64,000 nucleotides of DNA from Bacteroidota bacterium (GTDB taxonomy: Bacteria > Bacteroidota > Bacteroidia > Bacteroidales > JACABE01). The notes beneath the pieces were generated by a model, which saw nothing but the letters and a program-made list of their open reading frames with translations, made no database searches and was not told the origin of the DNA. Position numbers and translations under genes: made by a program. Location: NCBI GenBank assembly GCA_013377005.1, contig JACABE010000015.1, positions 1-64,000 on the forward strand. The letters run 5' to 3'. Positions within the stretch are counted from its first letter, which is position 1; each line of letters starts with the position of its first letter. Positions 13,038-44,032 of the stretch are shown here, piece after piece.

Positions 13038-13523
13038 ATGACAACTACTGAATATAACTGTTGTGTAGATGATTTTGCTGACGGCGTTTATCGCTTTATC
13101 CTCAAAAATATAAAAGATGAAGATAAAGCTAAGGACGTGGTGCAGGATTCTTTTATCAAAATGTGGGATAAAGTAGCTGATATTTCTAACGAAAAAGCAC
13201 GTTCTTATTTATTCACTACTGCTTACCATACCATGATTGACCAAATCAGAAGAGAGAAAAAGCAAACTACTTTAGATGATGCTTTTTTGAAAAGTCTGAC
13301 AATAGAAAACCATTATTCTGATTTAAAAGAAGTGCTGGATGCTGCATTGGAACAACTTCCTGAGATTCAGAAATCAGTAATTTTGCTGAGAGATTACGAA
13401 GGATATAGTTATGATGAAATAGGAGAAATTACCAATCTCAACGAGTCGCAGGTAAAAGTATATATTTACAGGGCACGATTATTTTTAAAAAATTACATAG
13501 GAGAGCTTGAAAGGGTTTTATAA
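13038..13523 (+). CDS. ECF-type RNA polymerase sigma-70 factor
   Basis: A 161-residue group 4 sigma factor. Region 2 spans about 12-75 (DKAKDVVQDSFIKMWDK, then ARSYLFTTAYHTMIDQIRREKK) and region 4 about 103-155 (LPEIQKSVILLRDYEGYSYDEIGEITNLNESQVKVYIYRARLFLK has the helix-turn-helix). No region 3. It is followed after 3 nt by a membrane protein that probably serves as its anti-sigma partner, then by a GIN/barrel protein. The 214 nt before the gene hold no confident promoter. Confidence 0.93.
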   Translation: MTTTEYNCCVDDFADGVYRFILKNIKDEDKAKDVVQDSFIKMWDKVADISNEKARSYLFTTAYHTMIDQIRREKKQTTLDDAFLKSLTIENHYSDLKEVLDAALEQLPEIQKSVILLRDYEGYSYDEIGEITNLNESQVKVYIYRARLFLKNYIGELERVL

Positions 13524-26817: not shown

Positions 26818-28056
26818 ATGATAGCTTTTGAAAAATTTACGTTGGAAAACGGATTAAAAGTACTGGTTCACAAAGATGAATCTACCCCTATAACTGCCGT
26901 AAATATATTATATAATGTAGGTGCCCGAGATGAACATCCTGATAAAACAGGATTTGCCCATTTATTTGAACATCTCATGTTTGGTGGTTCTAAAAATATT
27001 CCGGTTTTCGACGAACCACTCGAAAGAGTTGGAGGAGAAAATAATGCCTTTACCAATAACGACATCACAAATTATTATTTAACAATTCCTCAGCAAAATT
27101 TAGAAACCGCATTTTGGCTTGAATCAGACCGTATGAACGAATTGGCTTTTTCAGAAAAGAGCCTTGAAGTGCAGCGTAATGTTGTGGTTGAGGAATTCAA
27201 GCAACGCTATTTGAATCAACCTTATGGCGATGTATGGTTATTGCTTCGCCCATTGGCATACAAAAAACATCCTTATCAATGGTCAACAATCGGGAAAGAA
27301 ATATCGCATATCGAAAATGCTGTAATGGAAGATGTGAAGTCTTTCTTTTATCGCTTTTATCGTCCTAATAATGCCATCATGGTAATTGCCGGAAATGTGG
27401 AAGTAGAACAAATTAAAGAAATGAGTAAAAAATGGTTTGGAACTATTCCTGCCGGCGAACAACTGCAACGTAATATTCCTGCAGAACCATTGCAAACAGA
27501 AGAGAGAATGCTGACCGTTGAACGCAATGTTCCTTATGATGCTATTTACAAAACCTATCATATCTGTAAAAGAACAGAAAAAGACTACTATACTTTTGAT
27601 TTGATTTCTGATATTCTATCCAATGGAAAATCATCAAGATTCAACAACGAACTGGTGAAAAAACAAAAGCTATTTAGTGAAGTTAATGCATATCTTTCGG
27701 GAGATATTGATAATGGTCTTTTTATTATATCAGGAAAGTTGAACAATGATATTACAATGGAAGTTGCCGAACAAGCAATAGACAACGAAATAGATAAACT
27801 TAAAAATAATTTTGTTGAAGTTGACGAATTGCAAAAAGTAAAGAATAAAGCAGAATCGTTAATGATATTTTCGCAAATGAAAACCAATGATAAAGCAATG
27901 AATTTAGCATATTTTGAATTACTGGGAGATGCAAATATGATAAATACAGAAATTGAGAATTATAGAAATGTAACACAGGAGAATATTAAATCATTGGTTA
28001 CTAAAACGTTTATTAAAAGCAACTGCTCTAAATTATATTATCTTGCAAAAAAATAA
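26818..28056 (+). CDS. M16 family zinc metallopeptidase, catalytic subunit
   Basis: 412 residues of the pitrilysin/processing-peptidase family. The zinc motif HLFEH is at 48-52, the distal Glu lies in NVVVEEFKQR (about 121-130), and the second clan domain is present (PYDAIYKTYHIC, SNGKSSRFNNELVKKQKLFSE). No signal peptide is evident, which is common for this subgroup. Its usual partner, an M16 protein without the zinc motif, is found at 29724, but separated by two genes of an ECF sigma locus. The pair normally forms a heterodimer. Confidence 0.92.
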   Translation: MIAFEKFTLENGLKVLVHKDESTPITAVNILYNVGARDEHPDKTGFAHLFEHLMFGGSKNIPVFDEPLERVGGENNAFTNNDITNYYLTIPQQNLETAFWLESDRMNELAFSEKSLEVQRNVVVEEFKQRYLNQPYGDVWLLLRPLAYKKHPYQWSTIGKEISHIENAVMEDVKSFFYRFYRPNNAIMVIAGNVEVEQIKEMSKKWFGTIPAGEQLQRNIPAEPLQTEERMLTVERNVPYDAIYKTYHICKRTEKDYYTFDLISDILSNGKSSRFNNELVKKQKLFSEVNAYLSGDIDNGLFIISGKLNNDITMEVAEQAIDNEIDKLKNNFVEVDELQKVKNKAESLMIFSQMKTNDKAMNLAYFELLGDANMINTEIENYRNVTQENIKSLVTKTFIKSNCSKLYYLAKK

Positions 28057-28103
28057 CAGCATCAGACACCAAAACTAAGTTTAATATTGTCTATAAAATG
28101 TAA

Positions 28104-28637
28104 ATGATATCTGAAGCAGAAATAATAAGCGGATGCGTAAAAGGAGATAAAAGGGCTCAAAAAGCCCTATATGACAAATACTCAGCTAAAATGTTTGGGG
28201 TTTGCATAAGATATTTCAGAAGTAGAGATGAAGCTGAAGATGCATTACAAGAAGGATTTATTAAAGTTTTTAATAATATTGATAAATTTAGAAATGAAGG
28301 TAGTTTTGATGGATGGATTCGAAGAATAATAGTAAATACTGCGCTTAATTATTACAAAAGCAATTTAAAGCATTATTATTCGGTAGATTATCAAGAAATT
28401 GAAGAAAATGTTGAAGATACAAAACTAAATTTTGATAATTTTTCAGTAGAATTTCTTTTAAGTATTATTCAATCATTACCTGAAGGTTATCGACTGATTT
28501 TCAATTTATATGAAATAGAAGGATATAATCACAAAGAAATAGGAGAAATGCTTGGGATTTCGATAAATACATCGAAATCACAATTGATGAAGTCAAAAAT
28601 ACATTTACAAAAAAAACTGAATAAAAAAATTATATAG
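28104..28637 (+). CDS. ECF-type RNA polymerase sigma-70 factor
   Basis: 177 residues. Region 2: VKGDKRAQKALYDKYSAKMF, then DEAEDALQEGFIKVFNNIDKF and GSFDGWIRRIIVNTALNYYKS; region 4: LPEGYRLIFNLYEIEGYNHKEIGEMLGISINTSKSQLMKSKIHLQK, containing the helix-turn-helix. It belongs to the Bacteroidota ECF type that includes SigP-like factors. It starts 47 nt after the M16 protease gene and is followed 6 nt later by a membrane protein with a T9SS domain, its probable regulator. Confidence 0.93.
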   Translation: MISEAEIISGCVKGDKRAQKALYDKYSAKMFGVCIRYFRSRDEAEDALQEGFIKVFNNIDKFRNEGSFDGWIRRIIVNTALNYYKSNLKHYYSVDYQEIEENVEDTKLNFDNFSVEFLLSIIQSLPEGYRLIFNLYEIEGYNHKEIGEMLGISINTSKSQLMKSKIHLQKKLNKKII

Positions 28638-28643
28638 CACCAA

Positions 28644-29720
28644 ATGGAACAAGGAAAAGACATGGGAGATTTATTCAGAGAGGCTTTCAAAGATTTTGAA
28701 AGAAAGCCCTCCCCAAAGGTGTGGAATAACATTGAAAATACCATAAAAACACCTTTATATAGGAAATTTAATTTTTCAAAACCAATGAATTTAATCATTG
28801 GAAGTGCCATAATTGTTTCAATTATGGAAATCTTATATTTAGTTCAACCAAATAAACAACAAGTAAATACTCAGCTTCAAATAAAAAACACAGAAGTTGC
28901 TGAAAACAAAAAACAAAACATAATTACTAATGAAGAAAATACTGTTGTTTCTTCTCCAAAAATTATAAACAAGTCTCAAAAAGCAGCCAATATTAATACG
29001 AATAATGATTTAAAAATTAATATACCCAAGGAAAATACTACAAAAAGACAGAATATTAAAGATTTGATTGCTCAAGCAGATAACGATCAAATTATTTATG
29101 AAAATCAAAAGAAGCAAAACTCAGCAAATACTGCTGCTTTAGCTAAAACAAATACTGCAATAATTAATAAAAGCAATAATGATAACCAAAATACAATAAA
29201 AAACAATACTGTTATTTCAAAAAATAATCCTGTTACTGAAATTAGTTTTTCACCTGACCAAACTATTTGTAAAGGCGATAAAATAAAATTAAGTGTAAAT
29301 GGTGGCGTTTCTTATTTGTGGAGTACCGGTGAAAAAACGCAATACATTTTAGTAAATCCAACTTCATCTATTGATTACAGTGTAATTGCAACTGATGAAA
29401 ATGGCAACCGAAAAACAGGCTTGATTTCCGTTACTGTTTCTAATTGCAATGCTCCTTATATTCCAAATGCTTTCTCACCTAATAGTGATGGACAATCAGA
29501 TATTTTTAAAGTTTATGCAAATGATATTTCAAAGTTTGAAATGGTAATTGTATCACGTTCGGGCCAAGTTGTTTATACTTCTAAAAATATTAATGAAGGA
29601 TGGGATGGAAACATGAAAGGCAAACAAGCTCCCGAAGGAGTTTATCTATATACTATTAAATACACTAACGAACTTAATAAAGAACAAATCATTACAGGAC
29701 ATGTAACTCTTATCAGATAA
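28644..29720 (+). CDS. Membrane protein with N-terminal sigma-binding-type segment, PKD-like domain and T9SS type B sorting domain
   Basis: 358 residues. The N-terminal cytoplasmic segment (GDLFREAFKDFERKPSPKVWNNIE, about 8-31) is the type found in Bacteroidota proteins encoded after ECF sigma genes. One hydrophobic helix follows (about 50-67, MNLIIGSAIIVSIMEILYL), then an Asn/Lys-rich linker (about 70-190), a PKD-like beta domain (ISFSPDQTICKGDKIKL to VTVSNC, about 198-270), and a gliding-motility/type B C-terminal domain starting IPNAFSPNSDGQSD. An inner-membrane anchor together with a T9SS tail is contradictory if both work as usual. It may be an anti-sigma factor that senses export, or a relic fusion. 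Confidence 0.75.
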   Translation: MEQGKDMGDLFREAFKDFERKPSPKVWNNIENTIKTPLYRKFNFSKPMNLIIGSAIIVSIMEILYLVQPNKQQVNTQLQIKNTEVAENKKQNIITNEENTVVSSPKIINKSQKAANINTNNDLKINIPKENTTKRQNIKDLIAQADNDQIIYENQKKQNSANTAALAKTNTAIINKSNNDNQNTIKNNTVISKNNPVTEISFSPDQTICKGDKIKLSVNGGVSYLWSTGEKTQYILVNPTSSIDYSVIATDENGNRKTGLISVTVSNCNAPYIPNAFSPNSDGQSDIFKVYANDISKFEMVIVSRSGQVVYTSKNINEGWDGNMKGKQAPEGVYLYTIKYTNELNKEQIITGHVTLIR

Positions 29721-29723
29721 TTA

Positions 29724-31031
29724 ATGAATCAAAATATAAATCGAAGTTTTTCACCCGAAATACTAACTATCAATCCCGATTCATTCGGGATTGATAGTTT
29801 AGTGCCATTAAAAAATAATTTTCTTAATGGAATACCTTATTATCAAATTAATAAGGGAACTCAAGATGTTTTAAAAATAGAATTCCTTTTTAAAGCAGGA
29901 ACATCTTATCAGGAAATACCTTTTTCTGCTTTTTCTACCATTCAATTATTAACAGAAGGAACTGCAAATTATTCTGCTGAAAAAATTGCAGACTCCTTTG
30001 ATTATTTTGGAGCTTATATCGAGAAAGAAATTGATAGAGATTTTGCATCTGTTACAATTTACTGTTTAAATAAGTATTTAGAAAATATTATCCCGTTTGT
30101 TGAAGAAATAATAAAATGTCCTGTTTTTCCTGAACATGAAATTTCTATTTTTAAAGAAAAGCAAAAAACGCAACTAACCATTAACAATCAAAAAGTTAAT
30201 TTCGTTGCTAGAACTAAGTTTACAGAATTAATTTTTGGATCAAAGCATCCTTATGGACAAAAAGCAGAAATTGAAGATATTGAAAAAATCGAAAACAAAC
30301 ATTTAGCTGACTTCCATAAAAAACATTTCCATTCTAATAATTGTAATATTTTGATTTCTGGTAGAATAAAAGAAGATACTGTTATTTTACTTGAAAAGTA
30401 TTTTGGAAATACAAAATGGGGAAATGTTTCAGAAAATATTATATTAAAAGACCTTTCAACAACAATAGATAATCAACAGCACAAATTATTTATTCAAAAA
30501 AATGATGCTGTACAAACAGCAATAAGAATAGGTCGCGTAATGTTTACAATTAATGATCCCGATTTTCATAAATTTGAAGTTCTAAATACCATATTGGGTG
30601 GTTATTTTGGATCGAGACTCATGAAGAATATTAGAGAAGATAAAGGGTTTACTTATGGTATTGGCTCAGGATTATTGCCTCTTAAACATTCCGGATATTT
30701 TTTTATAACAACAGAAGTTGGTCAAGAATATACAAAGCAAACCATTGATGAAATTTATAAAGAGTTGAAAAAACTCAGAGAAGAGCTTGTTACTGATGAA
30801 GAATTATCGTTGGTAAAAACATATAAAATGGGCGAATTTATGCGAAGTATTGATGGGCCATTTGCTATTGCTGATATAGTTAAAACAATGATTCAGTTTG
30901 ACTTGACAATTGATAATTATAAAAATTATATAAAAACTCTTCAAATAATAAATTCTGAAGATATTCAAATTATAGCAAATAAGTATTTACAAGATAATAA
31001 ATTATATGAATTATGCGTTGGTAAGGAATAA
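29724..31031 (+). CDS. M16 family peptidase-like protein, non-catalytic subunit
   Basis: 435 residues with the M16 fold but no HxxEH: the site that should hold it reads AFSTIQLLTEGTANYSAEKI (about 73-92). The substrate-binding C-terminal motif is kept (NIREDKGFTYGIGSGLLPL, near 306). It is therefore the inactive partner of the M16 enzyme at 26818. It starts 3 nt after the T9SS-tailed membrane protein, so expression is tied to the sigma locus. A perfect 15-bp palindrome lies in its first 76 nt of coding sequence (29765-29799), encoding part of TINPDSFGIDSL. Confidence 0.88.
   Translation: MNQNINRSFSPEILTINPDSFGIDSLVPLKNNFLNGIPYYQINKGTQDVLKIEFLFKAGTSYQEIPFSAFSTIQLLTEGTANYSAEKIADSFDYFGAYIEKEIDRDFASVTIYCLNKYLENIIPFVEEIIKCPVFPEHEISIFKEKQKTQLTINNQKVNFVARTKFTELIFGSKHPYGQKAEIEDIEKIENKHLADFHKKHFHSNNCNILISGRIKEDTVILLEKYFGNTKWGNVSENIILKDLSTTIDNQQHKLFIQKNDAVQTAIRIGRVMFTINDPDFHKFEVLNTILGGYFGSRLMKNIREDKGFTYGIGSGLLPLKHSGYFFITTEVGQEYTKQTIDEIYKELKKLREELVTDEELSLVKTYKMGEFMRSIDGPFAIADIVKTMIQFDLTIDNYKNYIKTLQIINSEDIQIIANKYLQDNKLYELCVGKE
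29765..29799. repeat. Perfect palindrome inside a coding sequence (REP-like)
   Basis: Left arm 29765-29779 and right arm 29785-29799 are perfectly complementary (15 bp) around a 5-nt loop; the core is AATCCCGA/TCGGGATT. It sits at codons 15-25 of the inactive M16 gene and keeps the reading frame. Palindromes with a CCCGA...TCGGG core are typical dispersed repeats in Bacteroidota. Confidence 0.8.
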
Positions 31032-31084: not shown

Positions 31085-33118
31085 ATGAATAAGAACTTAA
31101 TAGCCATATTATTATTTTTTATTGTTACACAAAGTTTTGCTGTGTTACCTCCTTCTTTGCGTTGTATTTCCGTTTCAAGTAATGGAAATATTAGTTTGAA
31201 TTGGGTTATTCCTACTAATATTGCAAGTTTTGATAGTTATCATATTTACAGAAGTAATTCTTTAACAGGATTATATACTAAAATAGACACTATATTTAAT
31301 GTAAATCAAACAACATATTTAGATGTTGGAGTAAATGCTAATAATCAATCATTTTTCTATTATATTCAATGCAGATCCACAGCTAATATATATACTTCTT
31401 CATCAGATACTATACAAAGTATTCGTTTAATGGTAATAAATTCAGGAACTGGACTAGCCAATTTAACTTGGAATTCAATTCATTCGCCGACATTTCCAGT
31501 AACTTCTTCATTTTACAAAATTTATAAAAATAATTCGGTTTTAGCTTCGTGGACAAGAGTCGATTCTACACAAAATTTGTATTATAATGATACTGTTAAG
31601 ATATGTCATGATACCGTTTCTTATAAAATTGAAGTAAGAGATGCTTCGAATTGTTATTCAATATCTTCAATTGATGGTAAATTATTTGAAGACTATACAG
31701 CTCCAATTACTAATGGAATAGATACTGTGAGCGTTGACCGTATTAACGGTAAAACAATCATTGGATGGAAACCGAGTCCATCATTGGATACCTGGGGCTA
31801 TATTATTTGTCATGGTTCACCCTGCATCGCTCTGGATACAGTGTATGGAAGATTAAATTCAAGTTACATTGATTTGCTAAATAATCCTTGTTTAATGACT
31901 CAAACCTATAGAATTGCTGCTTTTGATAGTTGTTTTAATACTAGTTTATTCAGTAATAATCATACTACCATTAAGTTGAGTGGTGATTTAGATATTTGTG
32001 CTAATAAAATTTCGTTAAATTGGACTTCTTACATTAACATGAATCCTACTCTTCAAGGCTATAAAATTTTTATGAGTAAAAATGGAGGAAGTTTTAATGT
32101 TATTTCTACAAATAATGCTACAACTCTTAATTACACTTTTCTTAATATTGAAGATAGTACAACTTATTGTTTTTATGTTCAGGCATTCGAAAACACAGGA
32201 CAAAAAACGTCCAGTTCTTGTGAAAAATGTTTCTATGTTAAAAAGCCATTAAATCCGAAATATTTATATATTAGATCAGTATCTGTTGTCTCAGATAATC
32301 AGATAGATGTAAAAGTTTTTACAGATCCTTCCGTTGCTACTTCTGGGTATAAGATTTTTAAATCAAAATCTCCGATTGGTTTGTTTACTTATCTTACTAC
32401 AATTCCTTATACTGCGAGTGCAAATTATACTTACAATGATTATGCTGTAACTGCTAAAAATACAGCGTATTATTATAAAGTAAGTAATACTGATAGTTGT
32501 GGGAATATTGGAATGTCTTCCAATATAGCCCATACAATGTTGTTAACAGTAACATTTGTAGATGGTTATGTTAATAAATTAGAATGGACAGATTACGGAG
32601 ATTGGGTTGGAAATGTATCTTCTTATTCTGTTTTTAGAACAATAAATGATGGAGTAAATTTATTAAAGTTAGCTGATGTTTCACCATTAATACCTGGAAG
32701 TTTATACCAATATTTAGATGATATTCAGAATTTAACAGAAAGCAAGGGTAAATTTATATATTATATACAAGCAAATGAAAATCCAAATGCTACCTATAAT
32801 TTTGTTGAGAAAAGCAATTCAAATGAAATAGAAATTATTCAAATGCCTGAAATGTATATTCCAAATGCATTTGCTCCGGATGGCGTAAACAAGGAGTTTA
32901 AACCAGTTATGTCTTTTGTAAATAGTGAGAATTATTTTATGCAAATTTATAATAGATTCGGGCAATTAATATTTGAAAATAACAATCCAGATGTAGGGTG
33001 GAATGGGACATTCAAAGGTGAAATTGTTGCTTCGGGTGTATATGTTTATTTGATAAGATATAGCAAACCCAATCATGATGTTATACAGAAAAAGGGTATT
33101 ATCACCATTGTTAATTAA
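31085..33118 (+). CDS. Secreted fibronectin-III-like protein with T9SS type B (gliding-motility) C-terminal domain
   Basis: 677 residues. Signal peptide 1-19 (ending SFAVLPPS). The body is a series of fibronectin-III-like modules recognisable by repeats of the type 'GYKIFKSKSPIGLFTYL ... YTYNDYAV ... YYYKVSNTDSCGN' and 'SYHIYRSNSLTGLYTKI ... TYLDVGVN'. The last 90 residues (MYIPNAFAPDGVNKEFKP to the terminal KKGIITIVN) form the type B sorting domain for T9SS export. Probably a surface or extracellular protein; ligand unknown. It follows the M16 gene by 53 nt, without a terminator. Confidence 0.88.
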   Translation: MNKNLIAILLFFIVTQSFAVLPPSLRCISVSSNGNISLNWVIPTNIASFDSYHIYRSNSLTGLYTKIDTIFNVNQTTYLDVGVNANNQSFFYYIQCRSTANIYTSSSDTIQSIRLMVINSGTGLANLTWNSIHSPTFPVTSSFYKIYKNNSVLASWTRVDSTQNLYYNDTVKICHDTVSYKIEVRDASNCYSISSIDGKLFEDYTAPITNGIDTVSVDRINGKTIIGWKPSPSLDTWGYIICHGSPCIALDTVYGRLNSSYIDLLNNPCLMTQTYRIAAFDSCFNTSLFSNNHTTIKLSGDLDICANKISLNWTSYINMNPTLQGYKIFMSKNGGSFNVISTNNATTLNYTFLNIEDSTTYCFYVQAFENTGQKTSSSCEKCFYVKKPLNPKYLYIRSVSVVSDNQIDVKVFTDPSVATSGYKIFKSKSPIGLFTYLTTIPYTASANYTYNDYAVTAKNTAYYYKVSNTDSCGNIGMSSNIAHTMLLTVTFVDGYVNKLEWTDYGDWVGNVSSYSVFRTINDGVNLLKLADVSPLIPGSLYQYLDDIQNLTESKGKFIYYIQANENPNATYNFVEKSNSNEIEIIQMPEMYIPNAFAPDGVNKEFKPVMSFVNSENYFMQIYNRFGQLIFENNNPDVGWNGTFKGEIVASGVYVYLIRYSKPNHDVIQKKGIITIVN

Positions 33119-33289: not shown

Positions 33290-36200
33290 ATGAAAAAAGT
33301 CTTATTTTTTGTAGTTGCATTAATTATGACATTCTTCGTTTCTGCTCAAACGATTGTTTTTCAGGAAAATTTTGAATCTCCATCTATTAACCTTACAACT
33401 ACGGCTGATTCTTTAGGTATTCCTATAACCAATTTTAAAGCATGGGCAACTACAACAAACCTTCATAATTCCGGATCTAAAGCAGATTCAAATGTCCTGC
33501 AAACTGCGTTAAGGACAATTTACTTAACTTCACCCTCGTTTGCAACGACAGGAAATAATTATGTTCTTCTTGAGTTTGCTCAAATCTGTAAATTGTATCT
33601 TTCAGATGGAGGAACTGTTGATGTTTCTGTTGATGGTGGGATAACCTGGACTCCTTTGGGTGCTGCAAATTACCAAGGAGTGGGTAGTATGACTTTACAA
33701 GCAGGAACCCCTAAATTTTGGGATAATTCATATACCGATTGGTCATCTGGTACCAATACAATTCCTACCAATTCTTGGTGGAAAAATGAAAAATTTGATA
33801 TTTCATCGATTGCTGCTAATAAAGCCAGTGTTAAAATCAGATTTAGATATACTTCTAGTGGTGGTATTGATATTGCTCATGGTTTGGGTAGATATGGCTG
33901 GTTATTAGATGATATAAAAGTAACAGCAGGTCTTTCTGAACTCAATCCTCCTATTGTTACTATGATAAATTATCCTATCGATACAGTTTATTATGGCGGT
34001 TCTTTTAACGTGTCTGCTTATGTAAAAGATGTTTCTGGTGTTGACTCAGTATTTGTCAATTATAAAGTTGGAAGCGGATCATTTATTCAACTAGCTATGA
34101 CTAAATCAACAGTTGTAGATAGTTTATATTCAGTTGATATTCCTTATGTTGGATATGGAAAATCTGTTTCTTATAATGTAGTAGCAAGAGACGCATCTGT
34201 TTCACACAATTTAGCTTACATGCCTAGTTCTACCAGTTACTATACTTTTTATACAAAATATATGATTGGAAGTGACGTAATTGTTGGAACGGGTACAGGT
34301 GCTCAAAATTATCCTTTCAAATCAAATGCAGATTATACTAAAAGTGCTTCTATCTATTTAGCAAGTAGTATTAATAGATTTGGATTAATAACCCAGTTGC
34401 AATGGAAAGTATCTACTGCACAACCATCTATAAATATCCCTGTAAAAATATACATTAAGCAAATACCTACAGCCACAACTACTATGACTGCAGATACTTG
34501 GGCTAATTTAAAAAATGGTGCTCTCTTAGTATACGATGGAACTCAAACATTTGGTGCCACTGGATGGGCCGCAATTGCGTTGACAACTCCTTTTAACTAT
34601 AATTCCGGTAATTTAATGGTTTTATGTGAGGCTAATAATGTTACAGCTGCTTCTGCTACTCCGTCTTTCAATTCTACAACCGGAGTATCAGGCGTACATC
34701 AATTTTTTGCTTCAAGTGCTTCTGCAACAGGAACTTTAAATACTTCTCTTCCCAATATTACTATTAACTTTTATATGCCACCACCACCTACTCAAGATGC
34801 TGGAATTTCTGAAATTACTAATCCAACAGGAAGTGTAAATGCAGGAACTTCATTTAATTTAAATCTTAAGATTAAGAATTTTGGAACTACAGCATTGTCA
34901 AAAGCTACAGTTCTCTATTCTGTTGATGGTGATATTCCAGTAACTATTACATGGAATGGACAAGGTAGTTTAGCTAAAGATTCTACTAAAATTTTTACAG
35001 CTGCTAACTTGAATTTATCTGCAGGAATACATACAATATCTGCTTGGACAATATTGCCTAATGATAGCCTTGACCAAGATATCTCAAATGATACGAGTTC
35101 TATAAGATTTTATGCCTGCCCGGGTGCTTTAAGTGGATTTTACACTGTAGGTGGAGCTACTGCTGATTTTCCAACATTTAAAGATGTTTCTGTAGGTTTA
35201 TCACAATGCGGTGTTGGTGGTCCAGTTGTTTTTTATATTTCACCCGGAATTTATTCCGATCAGATTACATTTCATGAGATTCCAGGAGCTTCAGCTATTA
35301 ATACTATTACTTTTAGACCTGCTCTCAATTATGATAGTACTTCTGTAATTTTGAACCATTTATCTACCTCCGCAGCTAACTGGATTGTAAAATTTGATAG
35401 TGCTGATTATATTACTTTTAAGAATATTAAATTTGCACCTGCCGACTCTGTTAATTCTGTAGCAGTTATTTTTACTAATGGTGCTACCAATAATAAAATG
35501 CTTGGTTGTTTAGTGGTTGGTTATCAAGGAAGTGTTGCTAATCAATCTCTGATAAATATTGAAGCTTCAACATTGGCAAACGGTAACAACTTAATTCAAG
35601 GTAATTATATTAAAAATGGTTCTTATGCAATATTAATTAAAGGTACTTCAGCTTCAAAATTAAAAAATACGATTATTAAAAATAATAATATTTATGATCC
35701 TAAAGTTTATGGTATTTTTACTCAATATGTTGACTCTACTTTAATTGACTCAAATACTGTGTATTCTCAAGTTGCAAATACATCAAGTAAATATGGTATT
35801 TATCTGAAGTATGGCAATAATTCAAATATTATTACCAAAAATACAGTAAGTCTTACAGGTGGAACCAATATGTACGGTATTTTAACTGACAGCTGTACTT
35901 CAACAGATGCTACTAAGGGATTAATTGCCAATAATTTTGTTAGCGTATTAAATGGAACTACTTTTGCTTATGGAATTCGATTGAATGTTACAACCAAGTA
36001 TAGAGTCTATTATAACTCCGTGGTTACCAATGGTGCTAGTGCAACAGATACCAGAGCAATTAACGTTGTTGGTACAAGTTCTGGTATGGATTTGAAAAAT
36101 AATAACTTGTTAAGTAATAAATATCCTATTTATGTTGAAGGCTCTAATTCTGTTGCTTCCAGTAATTATAATAATTATTTTTCAACAGGAACTACTTTTG

Positions 36201-39200
36201 CTTATTGGAATGCCACTGCTTATGCAAATTTAGCGACATTAACAGCTGCCAGTTTAAAAGATATTAATTCAATCTCTGTGAATCCTTTTTTCGTTAGTTT
36301 AATGAATTTACACACTTCTAATGGTTTATTAAGAGCTGTAGGTACTCAACTAACTGATGTTACAAATGATATTGATGGTGTCACTCGTCCAAATCCTCCG
36401 TGTATTGGTGCTGATGAGTTTTTACCTGCAACAAAAGATATTGCATTTGTTTCATTTTTGAAACCAACTGGAGGTTGCGGGATGACTTCAGCTGAAGATG
36501 TTAAAATTGTAATCAAAAATGTAGGCATAACTACTATTTTACCTAATACTGTTATTGCTCGCTATAAAATTGATAATTTAAGTCCTATTTCAGAAACTGT
36601 AAATCGCACCATTAATCCAGGTGATACTGTTCATTTTATATTTGCTACAAAAGCAAATCTGATAGCTTCTTCAAGTGATGTTACATTTAATTTTAGAGCA
36701 TGGACTGATTTATATGGCGACTTAATACAAGTAAATGATTCAAGTGCAGTGTTTCCTGTGGTTTCAATGTACACTCCACCTGCACCTACTGTTGCTATTG
36801 CTACTACCTCTTATGCAACAAGTATTACTTTAAATGCAGTTTCTGCTAACTCTGTTGTATGGTATAGCTCTCCAACATCTCCAACTGTTTTGTTTTCAGG
36901 TTCATCTTTTACAACCCCAATTTTATATGCTACAACTACTTACTACGTTGCTGCAAATGCAACCAATTGTTCTAGTCCAAGAGCTCCAGTGGTTGTTACT
37001 GTAATTGTTCCTTCTAGTGATGCTGGAATTTCTCAAATTATTACTCCTTCAGGATGTTCTTTAAATCAAGTAGCTATTTCTGTGAAAATATTTAACCATG
37101 GTAGTGATACGCTTAAAAGCTCAAATACCACTGTTAAATACAAACTTGACGATGACGTTTTTATTACACCTGAACCATTAAATATTAATATTCTGCCTCA
37201 TGATACGGCACAATTTACATTTTCAACGCTGGCTGATTTTTCTGCACCAACTGCAGATAGATATATTAAAGTTACTGCTGTTGTTACTAAATTAAATGAT
37301 ACACAAAATAACAATGATATTCTTGTAAAGGATTCTATAATATCTCGCCTTTCGCCTAATATGCCTGTTACAAATAACGTATCTGTATTTGTTGGAAACA
37401 GCACTACTCTTACTGCAACTTCAAATGGTAATATATCCTGGTTTCACCAGCTAACAGGAGGAAGCAGCATTGCACAAGGAAATTCTTATACTACACCTAA
37501 CTTATTTGTAACTGATACATTTTATGTTTCGGCAAGTAATTCAAGCTCTTTTAATGCACAGGTTGGAACAGGTACGTCTACTCAAACATATCCTTTTTAT
37601 TGCAATTGGGGTTATACCCGAAGTGCATCGTTATATCAGGCAAATGAAATAGGAGGATATGGGCTTATGAATCAAATAGAATGGAATGTTTCGACTGCTG
37701 TTTCGACTGCAATCCCAATTAAAATTTATCTAAAAGAAACTTCTTCTACAAGTATGACTTCTGATACTTGGGCTAATTTGATAAGCGGTGCTACTTTAGT
37801 TTATGATGGAACTAAATCGTTTAATGCAGCAGGTTGGTATCCAATACCATTAGCTTCTTCTTTCAACTATTTGAGCGGAAATTTAATGGTGCTATGTGAA
37901 GCAAATTATGGAGGATCTGGAATATCTACCTATCCATCTTTTTACTATACTGTTGCTGCAACAGGTAGTCATCAGTATCAATATGCTGATATTACACCTT
38001 CAACATCAGCACTTACTCTTAATACTTCTAGACCAAATATTAGGTTAAGTGGAAACGTTACCGGTTGTACTACCTCTCCAAGAGTTCCTGCTATTGTTAA
38101 GATATTACCTACACCTCAAAATGATGCCGGTGTTACGGCTTTAGTAAATCCTAATGGCACCACAACATCTACTGTTCCAATTCCGATTAGAGTAAAAATC
38201 AAAAACTATGGACTAGCTCATTTAACATCAGCTAAAGTTTCCTGGAAATTGAATAATGTTATAAAACCTGATTATTTATTTACAGGAAATGTTTTATCAG
38301 GTGCTGATACTACTATTACAATTGCTAACGAAACCTTTGCTGGTGGCTTATATTGTATTAAAGCATGGACTAAAAATCCTAACGGTGCATTAATAGATAG
38401 CATTCCTTCAAATGATACATTGCAAAATGTATGTTTTACAGCTTGTTTGAATGGTAGTTACACCATTGGTGATACTACTGGTGGTAATTTTCATAATTTC
38501 CCAACTTTTAATTCTGCTGTAAATACATTAAAAATGGTTGGTGTTTGTGGAAATGTTACTTTCTTAGTTGACACAGGTACCTATAATGAACAAATAAGAA
38601 TATCTGAAATACAAGGAGCTTCGGCCTCAAATACAATTACTTTCCGTTCTGCCAGCAATGATAGTACCAAAGTAATATTGAAATACGCTGCCACTTCAGC
38701 TACCGATAACTATACATTAAGGTTAGATAGCGCTGACTATATTACTTTTAAGGCAATGACAATTAAAGCAGCAGGAACTACTTATGGAAAAGCTGTAGAA
38801 CTTATTAATAGTGCAACTTATAATACACTATCAAATAATATTATTGAAATGCCTCTTAACTCGAGTTCTGATTTTTATGGAATTTATGATTCAACAGCTA
38901 TTTCTGCTTATAATAAATATCAGAATAATAGAATTTTGAATGGTTATTGTGGTATTTTTAGCTATGGTGCCAGTTCTTCAAGTTTGAAAAAGAAAATTGA
39001 AATTACAGGGAATAAAATATTGAATTTCTATTCTTATGGTATTTATTCTTACTATCAGGATTCTATTAAGATTATTGGAAATCAAATAAGTTCAAATTTA
39101 GCAACTGCAAGTGTTTATGGTATCTATGCAATGTATAATAATAATGCAATTCAGATATTAAAGAATAATATTGTTCTTTCTACTTCAGGTTCGCAATGGG

Positions 39201-42200
39201 GTATTTATATTAATAATTGTATTGCTACTATTGCTGCTCGTGGTTTAATTGCTAACAATATGATTGCTCTTTCTGGTGGATCAACTACAACAAATAATTA
39301 TGGCTTGAATCCAGCTAATTCAAACTATCTTGATTTTTATTATAATTCTGTTAGAGTAAATGTTCCATCACTGGCTGGCGGAAGAGCCTTAAATATAGGT
39401 AATAATGGTACTAATTTAAGATTGCTTAATAATAGTTTTGTTAATACTGGTGGTGGTTTTGCTTATTATGTTCTAACTACAGGAGCTGTAAACAGATCTA
39501 ATTATAATAATATTTATACTACTGGTAACATATTGGCTTATTGGGGTATTAATAGAAATACCTTAGCTAATTTACAAACAGCAAGTAATAAAGATACCAA
39601 TTCAGTATCACTGAATCCTTCTTATAATTCTGTAACAGATTTACACTTATTTTCAATAGATTTGAGTTTGTTAGGAACTCCAATTGCTGGTATAACTGAT
39701 GATTTTGATGGAACAGTAAGGGATGTTTTAAAACCTACTATTGGAGCTGACGAATTTCCTTTGTTCCCTAATGATGCTGGAGTTACTATAATCAGACGTC
39801 CTAATGCAGTTGAAACCGAAGCTGCTACATTCCCTGTTATTGTTACAGTTAAAAACTGTGGTATTAATCCTATTACAACAATGACAGTTAGCTATAAACT
39901 GAATAATGGAGCTCCTGTTAATTATACTTACAATGGAAATCTTTTATCACTGGATACTGTTTCAATAACTTTCCCTACTAATATGACAGTTCCTGCAGGC
40001 AATGATACTATTTGTGCTTATACTACATTAACAAGCGATGCCAATCCATTTAACAATCAAATTTGTAAAAGTTTTTGGGGTACACCTCTATATGATGCTC
40101 AGGCTAGTATTTCTCCCTTTACTGAAGGATGTGGTTTGGCGAATGACACGGTGAAAGTATTAATTGCTAATCAAGGTATTATGCCTATTAATGGTAATTT
40201 ATTAGTAAGTTATCAAAAAATAGGGAGTCCTACTATTACTACAGATATTGTTGCAGTTCCTATTGCTGTTGGAGCCAATTATCTTCATAAATTTAATACA
40301 CTTGTAAATTTAGGAGTAACAACTTCTGATGTTACTTATAAAATAAAAGCTTGGGCTACTTTAACCAACGATAATTACCATGCTAATGACACAAATTTAA
40401 CAACTGTTGTTTCTTTGCATACACCGGCAACACCTTTAGCTTCTGCTGTTCTTCCTATTCCTTATGCCACAACAACTACTTTGTCCGCTACATGTACTAC
40501 TAATGATTCTATCAAATGGTTTAATGTTCCTACTGCTGGTAATGCATTATATACAGGAAGTCCTTTTGTAACGCCTATATTATTTACACCTACTACTTAT
40601 TATGTTGAAGCAACTACAAATTTTGCTACTACTGCTACTGTAGGTCCTGTATCTCCAACTGCTCAAGGAGGGGTTGTTGGTACTCAAACAGTTCCTTGGA
40701 ATGTTAATTTCACAACATTTAATCCTACTTCTATTAAATCAGTTGATATTTATCCGATTACATCTGGTCAGACCGGTGTGATTCAAGTTAGACAAGGATC
40801 TACAACTACGGGAACTTTATTAGCAACAATAAATTATACAACTACTGTATCTGGTGGAAATATACCTCAAACTATACCTATAAATTATGAACTTCCTGTA
40901 TCTGGTAGTTATAACTTATATGCAAGCACACTTCCTGCTTCCGGTATAACTTGGGATACATCAGGGTCTGTATATCCTTATACATCTTCTTATGCTAAAA
41001 TTACCGGCAATGGTTATAATCAGAATTGTTTTGTAGGTTTGTATAATTGGAAATTTGGTACAGGTTGTTCAAGTCCGAGAATACCAGTTGTAGTTAATGT
41101 TGGTGCTCAACCACAAAAAGACGCAAGCGCTGTTTCATTGATTACTCCTGTTACTGCTGCAAATTTAACTTCGTATGATACAGTAAAAGTAATAGTTAAA
41201 AACTATGGTTCTACCTCTTTTAGCAATTTTTATATGCGTTATAAATTGGATAATAATTCTACTGTTACAGAAACTGTGAACTTAGCAACTCCTTTAGCAA
41301 CAGATAGTTCAATTAAATACACATTTGTTAATACTGTTGATTTAAGTTCAAATAATTTGCCTCAAACATTTAATATAATGGTATGGGTTGATTTAGCTTC
41401 AGATCCTACACATCAGAATGATACTGTTAAAAGAACTTTTATTAATCTATTCCCAACTTATTGCATATCAACTGCAACAGATACAAGTGATGATGATATA
41501 GGTAATGTTACATTTGCTGGTATTAATAATGGAAATCCATTGCCTGTATTGAATAATCCTACTGCAAATCATATGTATAGTGATTTTACTTCACTTACCC
41601 CTGGGCAAATACAACCAAGTTTGAATTTTCCTATTTCAGTAAGTGCTATTTATAAAGCCAGTTCCTGGAGTGGTTATTGCAATGTTTTCATTGACTACAA
41701 TAGAAATGGTGGATTTGAACCGGCTACTGAATTAGCTTTTGGCGGAGATATTAATGGAACTAATTTATCAACCATTACAGGTGTTGTTTCTGTTCCTTAT
41801 ACTGCTTCTGCCGGTTTAACAAGAATGCGTGTTGTTTTGAGAGAAAATGGTTCAGCAGCTTCAACATTGCCTTGTGGTACTTATAGTTTTGGTGAAACAG
41901 AGGATTACACAATTAATATTCTTCCTCCAATTCCTCATGATGGAGGTATTTATAAACTTGTGTTAAATGGATTTTACCCATATTCATCTCCTAATCCTGT
42001 ACCTTCTCAGTTCCATCTTATTAATTATGGCTCAAATAATTTGACAACTGCTAATATTAATTATACTGTAAACGGAGTTGTTGGATCAAATAGTCCTACA
42101 CCTTGGTCAAAACCTAGTGGCTTGCCTTCGCTTCAAAAAGATACTATTTATTCAATTCCTATTTTACTTAATCCTGGTATGAATAATATTGTTTCTTACA

Positions 42201-44032
42201 CTAGTAATATTGCCGGTGATGTTAATACTCAAAATGATACTGCAAAAGTGAAAGTGTTTAAGGAGTATTTTACAGTTCCACCTTATTTAGATAACTTTGA
42301 TGTAAATAACTATTGGTATACACCTGATACTGCAAATGCTCGTCCTATATTAAATCTTTGGCAACAGGGAGTACCTTCATCTGCATTTCCATCTCTCAAT
42401 GCGGTTCATTCTCCAACAAAAGCCTGGGTGACAAATTTGAGTGGTAATTATCCAATAAAAGATACAAGTATTTTATATTCACCAGTGTTTGATATTTCTT
42501 TGCTTGTACCTGATTCCTTGAAATTCTGGCAATGGCGTCAATTTGGTACTGGTGTAAATGGACAATTACAATACAGAGGTTCAACTGGTGCTTGGTTGCC
42601 TTTGGGTATTCAAAATGATCCAAATGCAATCAATTGGTTTAATACTTCTACTAAAACATGGTCTGGTATCGATACTACTTGGAAGCTTTCTAAATACTAT
42701 ATTAAAAATTTAATGACATCTCTGACATCTCTTGGCTCAACCATAGTTCAATTTAGATTTGTATTTACATCCAGCGCAACCTCTACTCTAAAGAAAGGAT
42801 GGGCAATTGATGATTTTGAATTGACATTGCCTCCTATTCCTCAGGATGGTGGTGTGATAACTATTACTTCGCCTTCTACTACTTCTCAAATTGGAGATAT
42901 TCAAACGGTAAGTATAATTGTTAAAAATTATGGTACTGATCCTTTAGTTGATTTCCCAGTAACATATCAGGTTAATGGTGTTTCAATTGCAACTGAGGTT
43001 ATACATTCAACATTACAGCCAGGACTAACAATGCCATATACTTTTGCTCAACCGTTTACTGTTGGTAGTCAGAATTATGATATATGTGCTTTTACTGGAA
43101 TATTGAATGATATTTATACTCAAAATGATCCAAAATGCAATACTATTATTGTAGTGGCTGCTTCAAATGATGTTGGTGTAATTTCTATAGAACAACCTGA
43201 TGTTTTTGTAAGTACTGGTTCTTCAGTTTCTATAAAAGTTACAATTAAAAACTTTGGTTCTGTAACGCAAACTAATATACCATTATATTATCAACGTGGT
43301 AATCAGCCTGTAGTTAGAGACACTTGCTTTGTTAGTATACCTGCCGGTGCTACTCAACCATTTATTTTTACAATACCATTGGTTATCCCTAATGGTAATG
43401 GATTTAATTTTTATGCTAAAACTAATCTTCCAACTGATGTATTTACTCCTAATGATAGTACTTTTATGACGGTTAATATTTGTCCTGTTTATACTGCAGG
43501 TATTATTATGGGACCTAATAATGTAAGTCCGGGATCCACAGGTGTTACATATTCTATTACTGCATTAACAAATGCTACTTCTTATAATTGGGTTTACACT
43601 CCTTCTGCTGGTGTAACAATTCACGGTCAAGGTACGCCTTCAATAACCATTGATTTTGGATCAGGAGCTACTAATGGTGTGTTGACTGTTTATGGTGAAT
43701 CTGCCACTTGTTGGGGTAGTCCTTCTCCTGATTTTAGTATACAAGGACTTGGAATTGATGATATTGATGGAGAAAATTTTTGGTTAGGACAAAATATGCC
43801 TAATCCAACTACCGGTTTAACGAATGTTGAATATTGTTTGCCTAAAGCAGGTGATGTTAAATTTAATATTATGAACTTGTATGGTCAAAAAGTATATACA
43901 TTTAACGAAAAAATGGATGCAGGTAAGCATTATATTGATTTAAATGTTAATGATTTATCAGCAGGTATTTACTATTATACTATTGAATTTAAAGGCAAAC
44001 GCCTTGTAAAGAAAATGGTTGTTACTAAATAA
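33290..44032 (+). CDS. Giant multi-domain surface protein with T9SS type A sorting domain
   Basis: 3580 residues, signal peptide 1-19. Approximate order: a MAM/jelly-roll-like domain (about 20-230, ending YGWLLDDIKV); a 130-residue module starting GTGAQNYPFKSNADYTKSAS (about 334) that recurs at about 1425; CARDB-like repeats marked by 'DAGI..I..P' and 'VKIKNYG'; two right-handed beta-helix regions (about 610-1040 and 1720-2157); Ig-like 'TTPILYATTTYYVAA' segments; a GEVED domain (about 2780-2875, VFIDYNRNGGFEPATE to FGETEDYTINI); a second MAM-like domain (about 2990-3180); further CARDB repeats; and the type A sorting domain (about 3493-3580, NMPNPTTGLTNVEYCLPKAG to KKMVVTK). Likely a surface adhesin or extended scaffold. 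Confidence 0.9.
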   Translation: MKKVLFFVVALIMTFFVSAQTIVFQENFESPSINLTTTADSLGIPITNFKAWATTTNLHNSGSKADSNVLQTALRTIYLTSPSFATTGNNYVLLEFAQICKLYLSDGGTVDVSVDGGITWTPLGAANYQGVGSMTLQAGTPKFWDNSYTDWSSGTNTIPTNSWWKNEKFDISSIAANKASVKIRFRYTSSGGIDIAHGLGRYGWLLDDIKVTAGLSELNPPIVTMINYPIDTVYYGGSFNVSAYVKDVSGVDSVFVNYKVGSGSFIQLAMTKSTVVDSLYSVDIPYVGYGKSVSYNVVARDASVSHNLAYMPSSTSYYTFYTKYMIGSDVIVGTGTGAQNYPFKSNADYTKSASIYLASSINRFGLITQLQWKVSTAQPSINIPVKIYIKQIPTATTTMTADTWANLKNGALLVYDGTQTFGATGWAAIALTTPFNYNSGNLMVLCEANNVTAASATPSFNSTTGVSGVHQFFASSASATGTLNTSLPNITINFYMPPPPTQDAGISEITNPTGSVNAGTSFNLNLKIKNFGTTALSKATVLYSVDGDIPVTITWNGQGSLAKDSTKIFTAANLNLSAGIHTISAWTILPNDSLDQDISNDTSSIRFYACPGALSGFYTVGGATADFPTFKDVSVGLSQCGVGGPVVFYISPGIYSDQITFHEIPGASAINTITFRPALNYDSTSVILNHLSTSAANWIVKFDSADYITFKNIKFAPADSVNSVAVIFTNGATNNKMLGCLVVGYQGSVANQSLINIEASTLANGNNLIQGNYIKNGSYAILIKGTSASKLKNTIIKNNNIYDPKVYGIFTQYVDSTLIDSNTVYSQVANTSSKYGIYLKYGNNSNIITKNTVSLTGGTNMYGILTDSCTSTDATKGLIANNFVSVLNGTTFAYGIRLNVTTKYRVYYNSVVTNGASATDTRAINVVGTSSGMDLKNNNLLSNKYPIYVEGSNSVASSNYNNYFSTGTTFAYWNATAYANLATLTAASLKDINSISVNPFFVSLMNLHTSNGLLRAVGTQLTDVTNDIDGVTRPNPPCIGADEFLPATKDIAFVSFLKPTGGCGMTSAEDVKIVIKNVGITTILPNTVIARYKIDNLSPISETVNRTINPGDTVHFIFATKANLIASSSDVTFNFRAWTDLYGDLIQVNDSSAVFPVVSMYTPPAPTVAIATTSYATSITLNAVSANSVVWYSSPTSPTVLFSGSSFTTPILYATTTYYVAANATNCSSPRAPVVVTVIVPSSDAGISQIITPSGCSLNQVAISVKIFNHGSDTLKSSNTTVKYKLDDDVFITPEPLNINILPHDTAQFTFSTLADFSAPTADRYIKVTAVVTKLNDTQNNNDILVKDSIISRLSPNMPVTNNVSVFVGNSTTLTATSNGNISWFHQLTGGSSIAQGNSYTTPNLFVTDTFYVSASNSSSFNAQVGTGTSTQTYPFYCNWGYTRSASLYQANEIGGYGLMNQIEWNVSTAVSTAIPIKIYLKETSSTSMTSDTWANLISGATLVYDGTKSFNAAGWYPIPLASSFNYLSGNLMVLCEANYGGSGISTYPSFYYTVAATGSHQYQYADITPSTSALTLNTSRPNIRLSGNVTGCTTSPRVPAIVKILPTPQNDAGVTALVNPNGTTTSTVPIPIRVKIKNYGLAHLTSAKVSWKLNNVIKPDYLFTGNVLSGADTTITIANETFAGGLYCIKAWTKNPNGALIDSIPSNDTLQNVCFTACLNGSYTIGDTTGGNFHNFPTFNSAVNTLKMVGVCGNVTFLVDTGTYNEQIRISEIQGASASNTITFRSASNDSTKVILKYAATSATDNYTLRLDSADYITFKAMTIKAAGTTYGKAVELINSATYNTLSNNIIEMPLNSSSDFYGIYDSTAISAYNKYQNNRILNGYCGIFSYGASSSSLKKKIEITGNKILNFYSYGIYSYYQDSIKIIGNQISSNLATASVYGIYAMYNNNAIQILKNNIVLSTSGSQWGIYINNCIATIAARGLIANNMIALSGGSTTTNNYGLNPANSNYLDFYYNSVRVNVPSLAGGRALNIGNNGTNLRLLNNSFVNTGGGFAYYVLTTGAVNRSNYNNIYTTGNILAYWGINRNTLANLQTASNKDTNSVSLNPSYNSVTDLHLFSIDLSLLGTPIAGITDDFDGTVRDVLKPTIGADEFPLFPNDAGVTIIRRPNAVETEAATFPVIVTVKNCGINPITTMTVSYKLNNGAPVNYTYNGNLLSLDTVSITFPTNMTVPAGNDTICAYTTLTSDANPFNNQICKSFWGTPLYDAQASISPFTEGCGLANDTVKVLIANQGIMPINGNLLVSYQKIGSPTITTDIVAVPIAVGANYLHKFNTLVNLGVTTSDVTYKIKAWATLTNDNYHANDTNLTTVVSLHTPATPLASAVLPIPYATTTTLSATCTTNDSIKWFNVPTAGNALYTGSPFVTPILFTPTTYYVEATTNFATTATVGPVSPTAQGGVVGTQTVPWNVNFTTFNPTSIKSVDIYPITSGQTGVIQVRQGSTTTGTLLATINYTTTVSGGNIPQTIPINYELPVSGSYNLYASTLPASGITWDTSGSVYPYTSSYAKITGNGYNQNCFVGLYNWKFGTGCSSPRIPVVVNVGAQPQKDASAVSLITPVTAANLTSYDTVKVIVKNYGSTSFSNFYMRYKLDNNSTVTETVNLATPLATDSSIKYTFVNTVDLSSNNLPQTFNIMVWVDLASDPTHQNDTVKRTFINLFPTYCISTATDTSDDDIGNVTFAGINNGNPLPVLNNPTANHMYSDFTSLTPGQIQPSLNFPISVSAIYKASSWSGYCNVFIDYNRNGGFEPATELAFGGDINGTNLSTITGVVSVPYTASAGLTRMRVVLRENGSAASTLPCGTYSFGETEDYTINILPPIPHDGGIYKLVLNGFYPYSSPNPVPSQFHLINYGSNNLTTANINYTVNGVVGSNSPTPWSKPSGLPSLQKDTIYSIPILLNPGMNNIVSYTSNIAGDVNTQNDTAKVKVFKEYFTVPPYLDNFDVNNYWYTPDTANARPILNLWQQGVPSSAFPSLNAVHSPTKAWVTNLSGNYPIKDTSILYSPVFDISLLVPDSLKFWQWRQFGTGVNGQLQYRGSTGAWLPLGIQNDPNAINWFNTSTKTWSGIDTTWKLSKYYIKNLMTSLTSLGSTIVQFRFVFTSSATSTLKKGWAIDDFELTLPPIPQDGGVITITSPSTTSQIGDIQTVSIIVKNYGTDPLVDFPVTYQVNGVSIATEVIHSTLQPGLTMPYTFAQPFTVGSQNYDICAFTGILNDIYTQNDPKCNTIIVVAASNDVGVISIEQPDVFVSTGSSVSIKVTIKNFGSVTQTNIPLYYQRGNQPVVRDTCFVSIPAGATQPFIFTIPLVIPNGNGFNFYAKTNLPTDVFTPNDSTFMTVNICPVYTAGIIMGPNNVSPGSTGVTYSITALTNATSYNWVYTPSAGVTIHGQGTPSITIDFGSGATNGVLTVYGESATCWGSPSPDFSIQGLGIDDIDGENFWLGQNMPNPTTGLTNVEYCLPKAGDVKFNIMNLYGQKVYTFNEKMDAGKHYIDLNVNDLSAGIYYYTIEFKGKRLVKKMVVTK

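Follow-up and report, generated by a model that had tools for sequence, protein, structure and literature searches.

In FecI-FecR, an inner-membrane anti-sigma factor with a periplasmic extension reports an event at the outer membrane. The Dma anti-sigma factors of Bacteroides, going by the published description, consist of an N-terminal anti-sigma domain, a transmembrane (TM) helix, a long disordered tether and a barrel, and are neighbored by a sigma factor of the extracytoplasmic function (ECF) group ECF21 (PMC13088901). For the type IX secretion system (T9SS), the available accounts state that type B domains bind PorP-like barrels, with the side of the membrane at which SprB and SprF meet left open but the surface favored (PMC9143113), and that the gene immediately downstream of a type B gene is often porP/sprF-like, orphans sharing shuttles (PMC12618676). 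The nearest published link that we found between a T9SS tail and sigma control is, as far as its description goes, the PorA-PorXY-SigP circuit of P. gingivalis (PMC7712824). Here, we analyze a stretch of 64,000 nucleotides from a Bacteroidota bacterium (positions 1 to 64,000 of contig JACABE010000015.1; hereafter the window), in which an ECF sigma factor gene is followed by the gene of a 358-residue membrane protein with a T9SS type B sorting domain at its end. With moderate confidence, we read this protein as an inner-membrane Dma-like anti-sigma factor in which a T9SS type B domain has replaced the outer-membrane barrel, and in which engagement of the tether would set the hold on the sigma factor. 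The reading is built on features of sequence, namely the coupling to the sigma factor, the TM helix, the tether, the conserved type B tail, the swapping of tails within the family and a PorP gene in one lineage.

The initial annotation had claimed a pair of an ECF sigma factor and a membrane protein, the latter with an anti-sigma-type N-terminus, an inner-membrane anchor and a full type B tail. Both open reading frames (ORFs) are indeed there, and all three parts of the second protein were borne out by sequence comparison (Table 1). Its sorting domain is matched by CHU_C (PF13585) of Pfam over residues 273-354 (8.2e-18) and by TIGR04131, “T9SS type B sorting domain”, over residues 273-358 with 59.4 bits (2.9e-16; cut-off 35), corresponding to positions 3-85 of 85 in the profile. 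A hydrophobic segment spans residues 49-67, with a mean Kyte-Doolittle value of 2.12. The AlphaFold2 model of the whole protein, calculated from an alignment of 25 T9SS-tailed rows, predicts two N-terminal helices, the TM helix at residues 47-67 and two confident beta domains from about residue 200 to 358, the tether revealing predicted local distance difference test (pLDDT) values below 50 at residues 71-137 and 146-193. The PKD-like domain gave no Pfam match in the window protein itself, its assignment being derived from the AlphaFold2 model (about residues 200-267), from its likeness to the ends of cargo proteins of the same genome and from Pfam PKD matches in relatives. Structurally, the C-terminal part resembles the immunoglobulin (Ig)-like repeats of the Aureispira grappling-hook protein GhpA and of other adhesins (Foldseek E 8e-8), with Z-scores of the Ig-like matches of about 8 across both beta domains and up to 10 for the last domain. 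A sequence search of the PDB with the PKD-like and CHU_C part returned only designed proteins at E 0.005 or worse, which we take as chance, and tblastn against plasmids gave C-terminal matches only, nowhere covering 80% of the query. Neither the FecR domain (PF04773, at E up to 1) nor our hidden Markov model (HMM) of the barrel matched the window protein.

A cleaved signal peptide had been named by the initial annotation as the alternative to an anchor. Judged by hydropathy against control ORFs of the same genome, not by a predictor, the helix differs from a typical signal peptide. In 11 of the 14 readable CHU_C ORFs of this genome, the most hydrophobic stretch begins at residue 3-15; in the others, it begins at residue 28 in one with a doubtful start, at residue 50 in the window protein and at residue 57 in a paralog on contig C89. 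This position near residue 50, behind a conserved segment of 46 residues, ruled out the typical signal peptide as an explanation. Across the family, the median start of the TM segment is residue 50 in 34 T9SS-tailed relatives and residue 51 in 43 barrel-tailed ones. Another CHU_C-bearing protein of this genome, lipoprotein-like, 129 residues long and consisting almost only of this domain, is encoded on the same contig as SprA (L016; G000:C25:6000-9500).

The window sigma factor has both region 2 and region 4 (Pfam Sigma70_r2 1.9e-16 and Sigma70_r4_2 3e-13; TIGR02937 4.9e-28), and the nearest NCBIfam subfamily, TIGR02985, reached 96.3 bits, under its cut-off of 126.4. Its coupling to the anti-sigma-type protein is consistent across the family. 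The first 80 residues of the latter have matches in 52 of 148 related genomes, and an N-terminal profile, common to barrel-tailed and T9SS-tailed proteins, matches 90 of 395 genomes of the phylum at 1e-4. A homologous ECF sigma factor is the preceding gene in 30/30 loci that were fetched with the N-terminus as a seed, showing 41-82% identity in the 29 loci other than the window, and in the N-terminal alignment of 29 rows W27 is invariant and P22 nearly so. By gene order and sequence, the pairing of sigma factor and anti-sigma-type protein is more than chance, and a chance neighborhood was ruled out as a candidate explanation by the coupling in every one of these loci. In one further locus, two tandem sigma and anti-sigma pairs of the same family were seen (L152; G235:C1:325700-329000).

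The two genes of the window happen to be in frame, and the sigma factor was folded together with the first 79 residues of the anti-sigma-type protein as one read-through chain, using an alignment of 9 paired rows, 17 anti-sigma rows and 11 sigma rows. AlphaFold2 returned a pLDDT of 85 and a predicted template modeling score (pTM) of 0.74 for this chain, in which anti-sigma residues 21-30 have a pLDDT of 97 compared with 81 in the protein alone, the two alignments being different. The modeled sigma factor was closest to anti-sigma-bound SigW (Z 14.4, 155 residues, root-mean-square deviation (rmsd) 4.4 Å); the values were Z 12.5, 151 residues and rmsd 5.4 Å for CnrH, and Z 12.4, 151 residues and rmsd 4.9 for RpoE-NepR. 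ECF sigma factors bound to RNA polymerase (RNAP), in contrast, aligned over the full length at an rmsd of about 26 Å. In the model, the sigma factor is hence predicted to be compact as in the anti-sigma-bound forms, unlike the RNAP-bound ones, which is support, not proof, of its being held; we take it as support only because the model comes without predicted aligned error (PAE) or coordinates.

Compared with three genus-mates (L019-L021), the sorting domain is 67-71% identical and the PKD/Ig-like domain 61-79%, with 52-61% for residues 1-46 and 19-31%, with gaps, for the linker. A fourth, more distant relative displays 54% identity in the sorting domain, 50% in residues 1-46 and 26% in the linker. 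Judged by these identities, the type B tail is under purifying selection and is more conserved than the anti-sigma segment.

Searched for in other Bacteroidota, as the initial annotation had proposed, the architecture recurs widely. Our survey comprised 107 loci, 30 seeded with the N-terminus and 77 seeded with the sigma factor and having a downstream ORF (80 fetched; L049, L064 and L068, without such an ORF, are outside the 107). A T9SS type B tail was found in 34 of them (15 + 19) and a barrel in 43 (14 + 29), while the far end was unrecognized in 26 (0 + 26) and cut by contig ends in 4 (1 + 3). Our own barrel and T9SS HMMs were built partly from the surveyed loci, and counts obtained with Pfam and NCBIfam are hence given alongside: CHU_C was matched in 15 of the 30 N-terminus-seeded loci and in 19/19 sigma-seeded T9SS-tailed proteins, TIGR04131 in 17/19 of the latter, and OMP_b-brl_2 in 6 of the 30 N-terminus-seeded loci versus 14 by our own barrel model, which was partly trained on them. 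The Pfam barrel models are less sensitive than our own. Among the 26 tail-less proteins, L080 is not an anti-sigma factor, and those of L111 and L123 resemble barrels that escaped recognition.

On the sigma tree, the T9SS label has to change 7 times, starred branches forcing at least 3 of these changes, compared with 29 in the mean of the shuffles; inside one starred group, barrels and T9SS tails alternate, and the window sigma factor falls into a starred clade of 10 rows, all T9SS-tailed. According to this tree, tails have been swapped several times. The window genome itself harbors two T9SS-tailed systems (contigs C7 and C89) and one barrel-tailed system (C23). Crocinitomix catalasitica ATCC 23190 (L054) is a carrier that is available in culture. 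A second kind of T9SS tail on the family was found in L165 (G477:C1:1112000-1116900), in which a minus-strand ORF beside the same sigma family encodes an anti-sigma-like protein with TonB-plug-like and VWA domains and, at its end, a type A sorting domain of the T9SS (Por_Secre_tail 5e-10). In L158 (G481:C60:187200-190400), a TonB C-terminal domain (27.7 bits against a cut-off of 24.6) forms the end of the anti-sigma-like protein of the family, at 1020-1901.

With regard to the secretion system, SprA is present in the window genome (TIGR04189, 2681.6 bits). A PorP/SprF-like gene (PF11751, 4e-57 to 8e-67) is the next gene in L056, L073, L087 and L106, on the same strand and 156-293 bp downstream; among the sigma-seeded loci, this adjacency was observed in 4/19 T9SS-tailed but in 0/55 barrel-tailed or tail-less ones, three of the window genome's four PorP-like proteins serving as queries. 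Since such a gene follows the tail in these relatives, the barrel may be supplied in trans, and the T9SS-tailed variant seems, from its gene order, to be a Dma-like protein with the barrel on a second polypeptide. The four loci cluster on the sigma tree and have like-looking following genes, so that the adjacency is best regarded as one event kept over time. One of the genome's four PorP-like genes lies, according to our own reading of the ORFs, beside gldK-, gldL- and gldM-like genes. Co-occurrence with the T9SS, for which SprA was searched in 29 genomes and in the 395 phylum genomes, was dropped as a test because SprA is found in both tail classes. Forty stretches from the phylum-profile N-terminal matches were classified; the two T9SS-tailed ones, L146 and L162, are from SprA-positive genomes. 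An N-terminal match but no SprA match was noted in two of the 395 genomes, G496 (barrel-tailed, L132) and G149 (tail-less, L163).

Upstream of the sigma genes, the bipartite motif CAAC-N18-GTCT, the best of many motif pairs tried, is exact in 27/109 upstream regions and in 0 of 8 shuffled sets. A weight matrix (TGCAACCTTT, 13 less constrained bases, TGTCTW), trained on these same regions, places 75/109 of them above the 99th percentile of shuffles. Elements resembling CAAC-N18-GTCT lie upstream of most family sigma genes in loci L018-L127. The bipartite form fits an ECF promoter, and autoregulation of the sigma factor is therefore likely. The window carries the variant CACC-N18-GTCTA, which is kept in the genus-mates L019-L021, and the genome contains no exact match to CACC-N17-TGTCTA other than this copy. 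With one mismatch allowed, the CACC variant has 43 + 64 matches genome-wide, not above the 68 + 62 of a reversed-pattern control, and GCAAC-N18-GTCTW has 6 matches in the genome compared with 7 in the control. Two of these six matches are located 43-44 nt before exported-looking ORFs, one of them with a type A sorting end, and a further near match lies 20 nt ahead of a type B cargo gene; such promoter-like matches ahead of exported-looking ORFs are suggestive only. Overlapping inverted copies of CAAC-N17-TGTCTA were also seen at about 1874-1904 of L227 (G000:C17:26500-31000), between divergent lipoprotein-like and small barrel-like genes.

The initial annotation had taken positions 28104-29720 as the unit. 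While the pair is real, its extent was set too small: M16 peptidase genes flank it on both sides and a T9SS cargo gene lies beyond (Table 1). PorX, to which the same annotation had pointed, is encoded in the window (8267-9823, minus strand, PglZ and receiver), but lies about 18 kb from the pair, and its proposed relevance gained no specific support.

Table 1. Features of the sigma factor locus, in window coordinates.
Feature	Position	Strand	Remarks
M16 peptidase a	26818..28056	+	Pfam M16 8e-21, M16_C 1.1e-32; HxxEH zinc motif (HLFEH); signal peptide not evident
Putative autoregulatory ECF promoter, variant CACC-N18-GTCTA	28067..28093	+	3' end about 11 nt ahead of the sigma start
ECF sigma factor, 177 aa	28104..28637	+	Family of the neighbors of Dma-like anti-sigma factors
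T9SS-tailed anti-sigma-type protein, 358 aa	28644..29720	+	
Cytoplasmic anti-sigma-type N-terminal segment, residues 1-46, two helices	28644..28781	+	Alignment; AlphaFold2 of the read-through chain
Transmembrane helix, residues 47-67	28782..28844	+	Hydropathy; AlphaFold2 helix
Disordered tether, residues 68-197 (130 residues)	28845..29234	+	pLDDT; low identity with gaps between genus-mates
PKD/Ig-like beta domain, residues 198-267	29235..29444	+	AlphaFold2; structural matches to Ig-like adhesin repeats; identity to L019-L021
T9SS type B sorting domain (CHU_C), residues 268-358	29445..29717	+	PF13585; TIGR04131; identity to L019-L021
M16 peptidase b	29724..31031	+	Pfam M16_C 7.6e-32; HxxEH motif not seen (read from sequence)
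T9SS type B cargo, 677 aa, signal-peptide-like start, fn3 and CHU_C	31085..33118	+	CHU_C 1.2e-12, fn3 1.4e-7, TIGR04131 39.3 bits

The gene order M16a, sigma, anti-sigma, M16b is kept within the 10-row clade of the window. Seven loci have M16a upstream and nine have M16b downstream, all of these loci belonging to this clade, and the M16 pair was found in no other locus examined, loci outside the sigma-seeded set having only 1.5 kb of flank. A full-length ortholog of the cargo follows M16b in L173, L174, L175, L177 and L178 and lies farther along in L048; L172 stops too early to show it, L176 has none, and L179 is without both M16 genes. M16 heterodimers with one active subunit are known, and, since the HxxEH motif is present in M16a and was not seen in M16b, the latter is probably a non-catalytic partner of the former. 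A signal peptide is not evident in M16a or M16b, so that a role in clearing anti-sigma fragments, which is speculation, would be cytoplasmic. At the edge of the M16-sigma cluster in L172 and L173, a 161-aa sigma factor adjoins glyA. Elsewhere in the window, a second, more distant ECF sigma gene is found at 13038-13523, and directly past the operon, at 33290-44032, lies the gene of a protein of 3580 residues, the start of which resembles a signal peptide and the end, by eye, a T9SS type A tail.

From these features, we infer binding of the sigma factor, export or docking of the tail and a direction for the signal. The N-terminal helices would keep the sigma factor inactive. The T9SS would recognize the tail and hand it to a PorP/SprF-like barrel, or the barrel would bind the tail from the periplasm, and one chain would then span from the cytosol to the outer membrane or the surface. 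A change at the outer end, whether export fails or succeeds, the barrel partner is lost, a pull is exerted or the tether is cleaved, would loosen the N-terminal hold, and the freed sigma factor would drive expression of the operon to which it belongs, the genes of the M16 pair and of the T9SS cargo among them. In its strongest form, which we put forward only tentatively, a single polypeptide may connect the cytosolic sigma factor with the surface: the T9SS would deliver the outer end of the chain, a PorP/SprF-like barrel would hold it there, and the sigma factor would directly read out the secretion system or the surface anchor that this system feeds. As the tail may replace a Dma-type barrel and dock to a PorP-like one, the simpler reading is that the system may sense the outer membrane or the surface and not the secretion machine itself.

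Several points weigh against the Dma-like reading. The held sigma factor was modeled as a read-through fusion from no more than 9 paired rows, with no PAE or coordinates to inspect; the promoter copy of the window scores 7.2 in the weight matrix, the threshold being 12.4; and the genome-wide motif counts gave no regulon enrichment, so that no regulon can be claimed. SprA is found in 15/15 T9SS-tailed but also in 14/14 barrel-tailed genomes and does not discriminate between them. The four PorP-adjacent loci belong to one lineage, with a Fisher value of 0.003 that overstates their independence, and no PorP/SprF-like gene adjoins the window locus, the genome's four being situated on other contigs. 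Finally, the tether of a protein anchored in the inner membrane would be left behind in the SprA channel if it had no sideways exit, and, in the literature consulted, we found no report of T9SS substrates that exit in this way; this difficulty is avoided if docking takes place from the periplasmic side.

Other explanations have to be compared with this one. The tail could be a decoy substrate that is engaged or cleaved when secretion works, but not when it is blocked or saturated, thereby setting sigma activity and a feedback on cargo expression. A complete type B signal, more conserved than the N-terminus, would suit such a reporter of T9SS activity, as would an operon that ends in a type B cargo gene, with similar cargo ends across the genome. 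Published precedents point the same way within the limits of their descriptions: in F. psychrophilum, an ECF sigma/anti-sigma pair and several T9SS genes have an ECF-type promoter in common (PMC9723704), and PorA of P. gingivalis, a protein with the C-terminal domain (CTD) of T9SS substrates, acts upstream of SigP (PMC7712824). We nevertheless consider this reading unlikely, given that the motif searches of the genome revealed no regulon link to T9SS component genes and that a barrel-tailed sibling (L132) occurs in a genome with no SprA match (G496), from which it follows that T9SS status need not be the signal sensed by the family.

It is less probable still that the tail never leaves the periplasm and that its Ig-like module binds a ligand, peptidoglycan or a periplasmic part of the T9SS, the protein being a one-membrane anti-sigma factor with a periplasmic sensor. 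A single TM anchor and the generic nature of the Ig-like fold would agree with this, and for the 26/107 relatives without a recognized far module, sensing in the periplasm or within the membrane is indeed probable; against it, the match to the curated type B model extends to the last residue, PorP/SprF genes stand behind the tail in four relatives, and the tail alternates with barrels on the sigma tree. An ordinary T9SS cargo protein with a long signal anchor, placed next to the sigma gene by chance, would account for the likeness of the PKD-like and CHU_C part to cargo ends of the same genome (best matches 33-41% identity), but it is very improbable in view of the invariable sigma coupling, of an N-terminus that is common to barrel-tailed anti-sigma-type proteins and of a hydrophobic stretch at residue 50 instead of residues 3-15 as in 11/14 CHU_C ORFs.

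A Dma-like anti-sigma factor with a T9SS tail, as we prefer to read the window protein, shares features with each of the known systems. As in FecI-FecR, an anti-sigma-type protein of the inner membrane has a periplasmic extension; unlike FecR, it has no FecR domain, and its far end is a secretion signal. With type B cargo that uses a PorP/SprF-like shuttle, as described for SprB/SprF and PG1035/PorP (PMC9143113, PMC12618676), it has in common a complete type B sorting domain and, in the genome, the T9SS translocon SprA. It differs from such cargo in its cytoplasmic anti-sigma segment of 46 residues, its internal TM helix and the lack of a cleavable-looking signal peptide, and its locus differs from many type B cargo loci in having no PorP-like gene, an adjacency that is common but not universal. 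The PorA-PorXY-SigP circuit likewise comprises a CTD-bearing protein and an ECF sigma factor, yet PorA is, by the account given, secreted with a 27-residue signal sequence and acts via a sensor kinase, not as an anti-sigma factor (PMC7712824). A literature search, with subscription papers and preprints outside its scope, found no description of an anti-sigma factor with a T9SS tail; this combination appears to be new, the barrel-tailed Dma class being already known.

If the sigma factor is held by a T9SS-tailed protein, a direct wire would run from the surface to the gene, which bears on the open question of how bacteria with a T9SS monitor this system or their surface, and a T9SS signal could anchor an inner-membrane protein, not only export a free one. 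The closest relationship is with Dma. As in the published description of that class, the window protein has an N-terminal anti-sigma-type domain, one TM helix, a long disordered tether and an adjacent sigma factor (PMC13088901), and barrel-tailed loci were found with the same N-terminal profile; unlike Dma, it lacks a fused C-terminal barrel and carries a PKD-like and a T9SS type B domain instead. As it has all the described Dma features except the barrel, we do not file it as Dma. The published Dma anti-sigma factors are barrel-tailed proteins with such a layout next to ECF21 sigma factors, which makes the window protein a T9SS-tailed variant of a Dma-like system, and by analogy this variant should work like Dma. 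If so, the Dma class would no longer be confined to proteins with a fused barrel but become a modular family whose outer ends can be exchanged, and Bacteroidota would have two interchangeable ways of fixing the outer end, a fused barrel or a T9SS tail with the barrel in trans.

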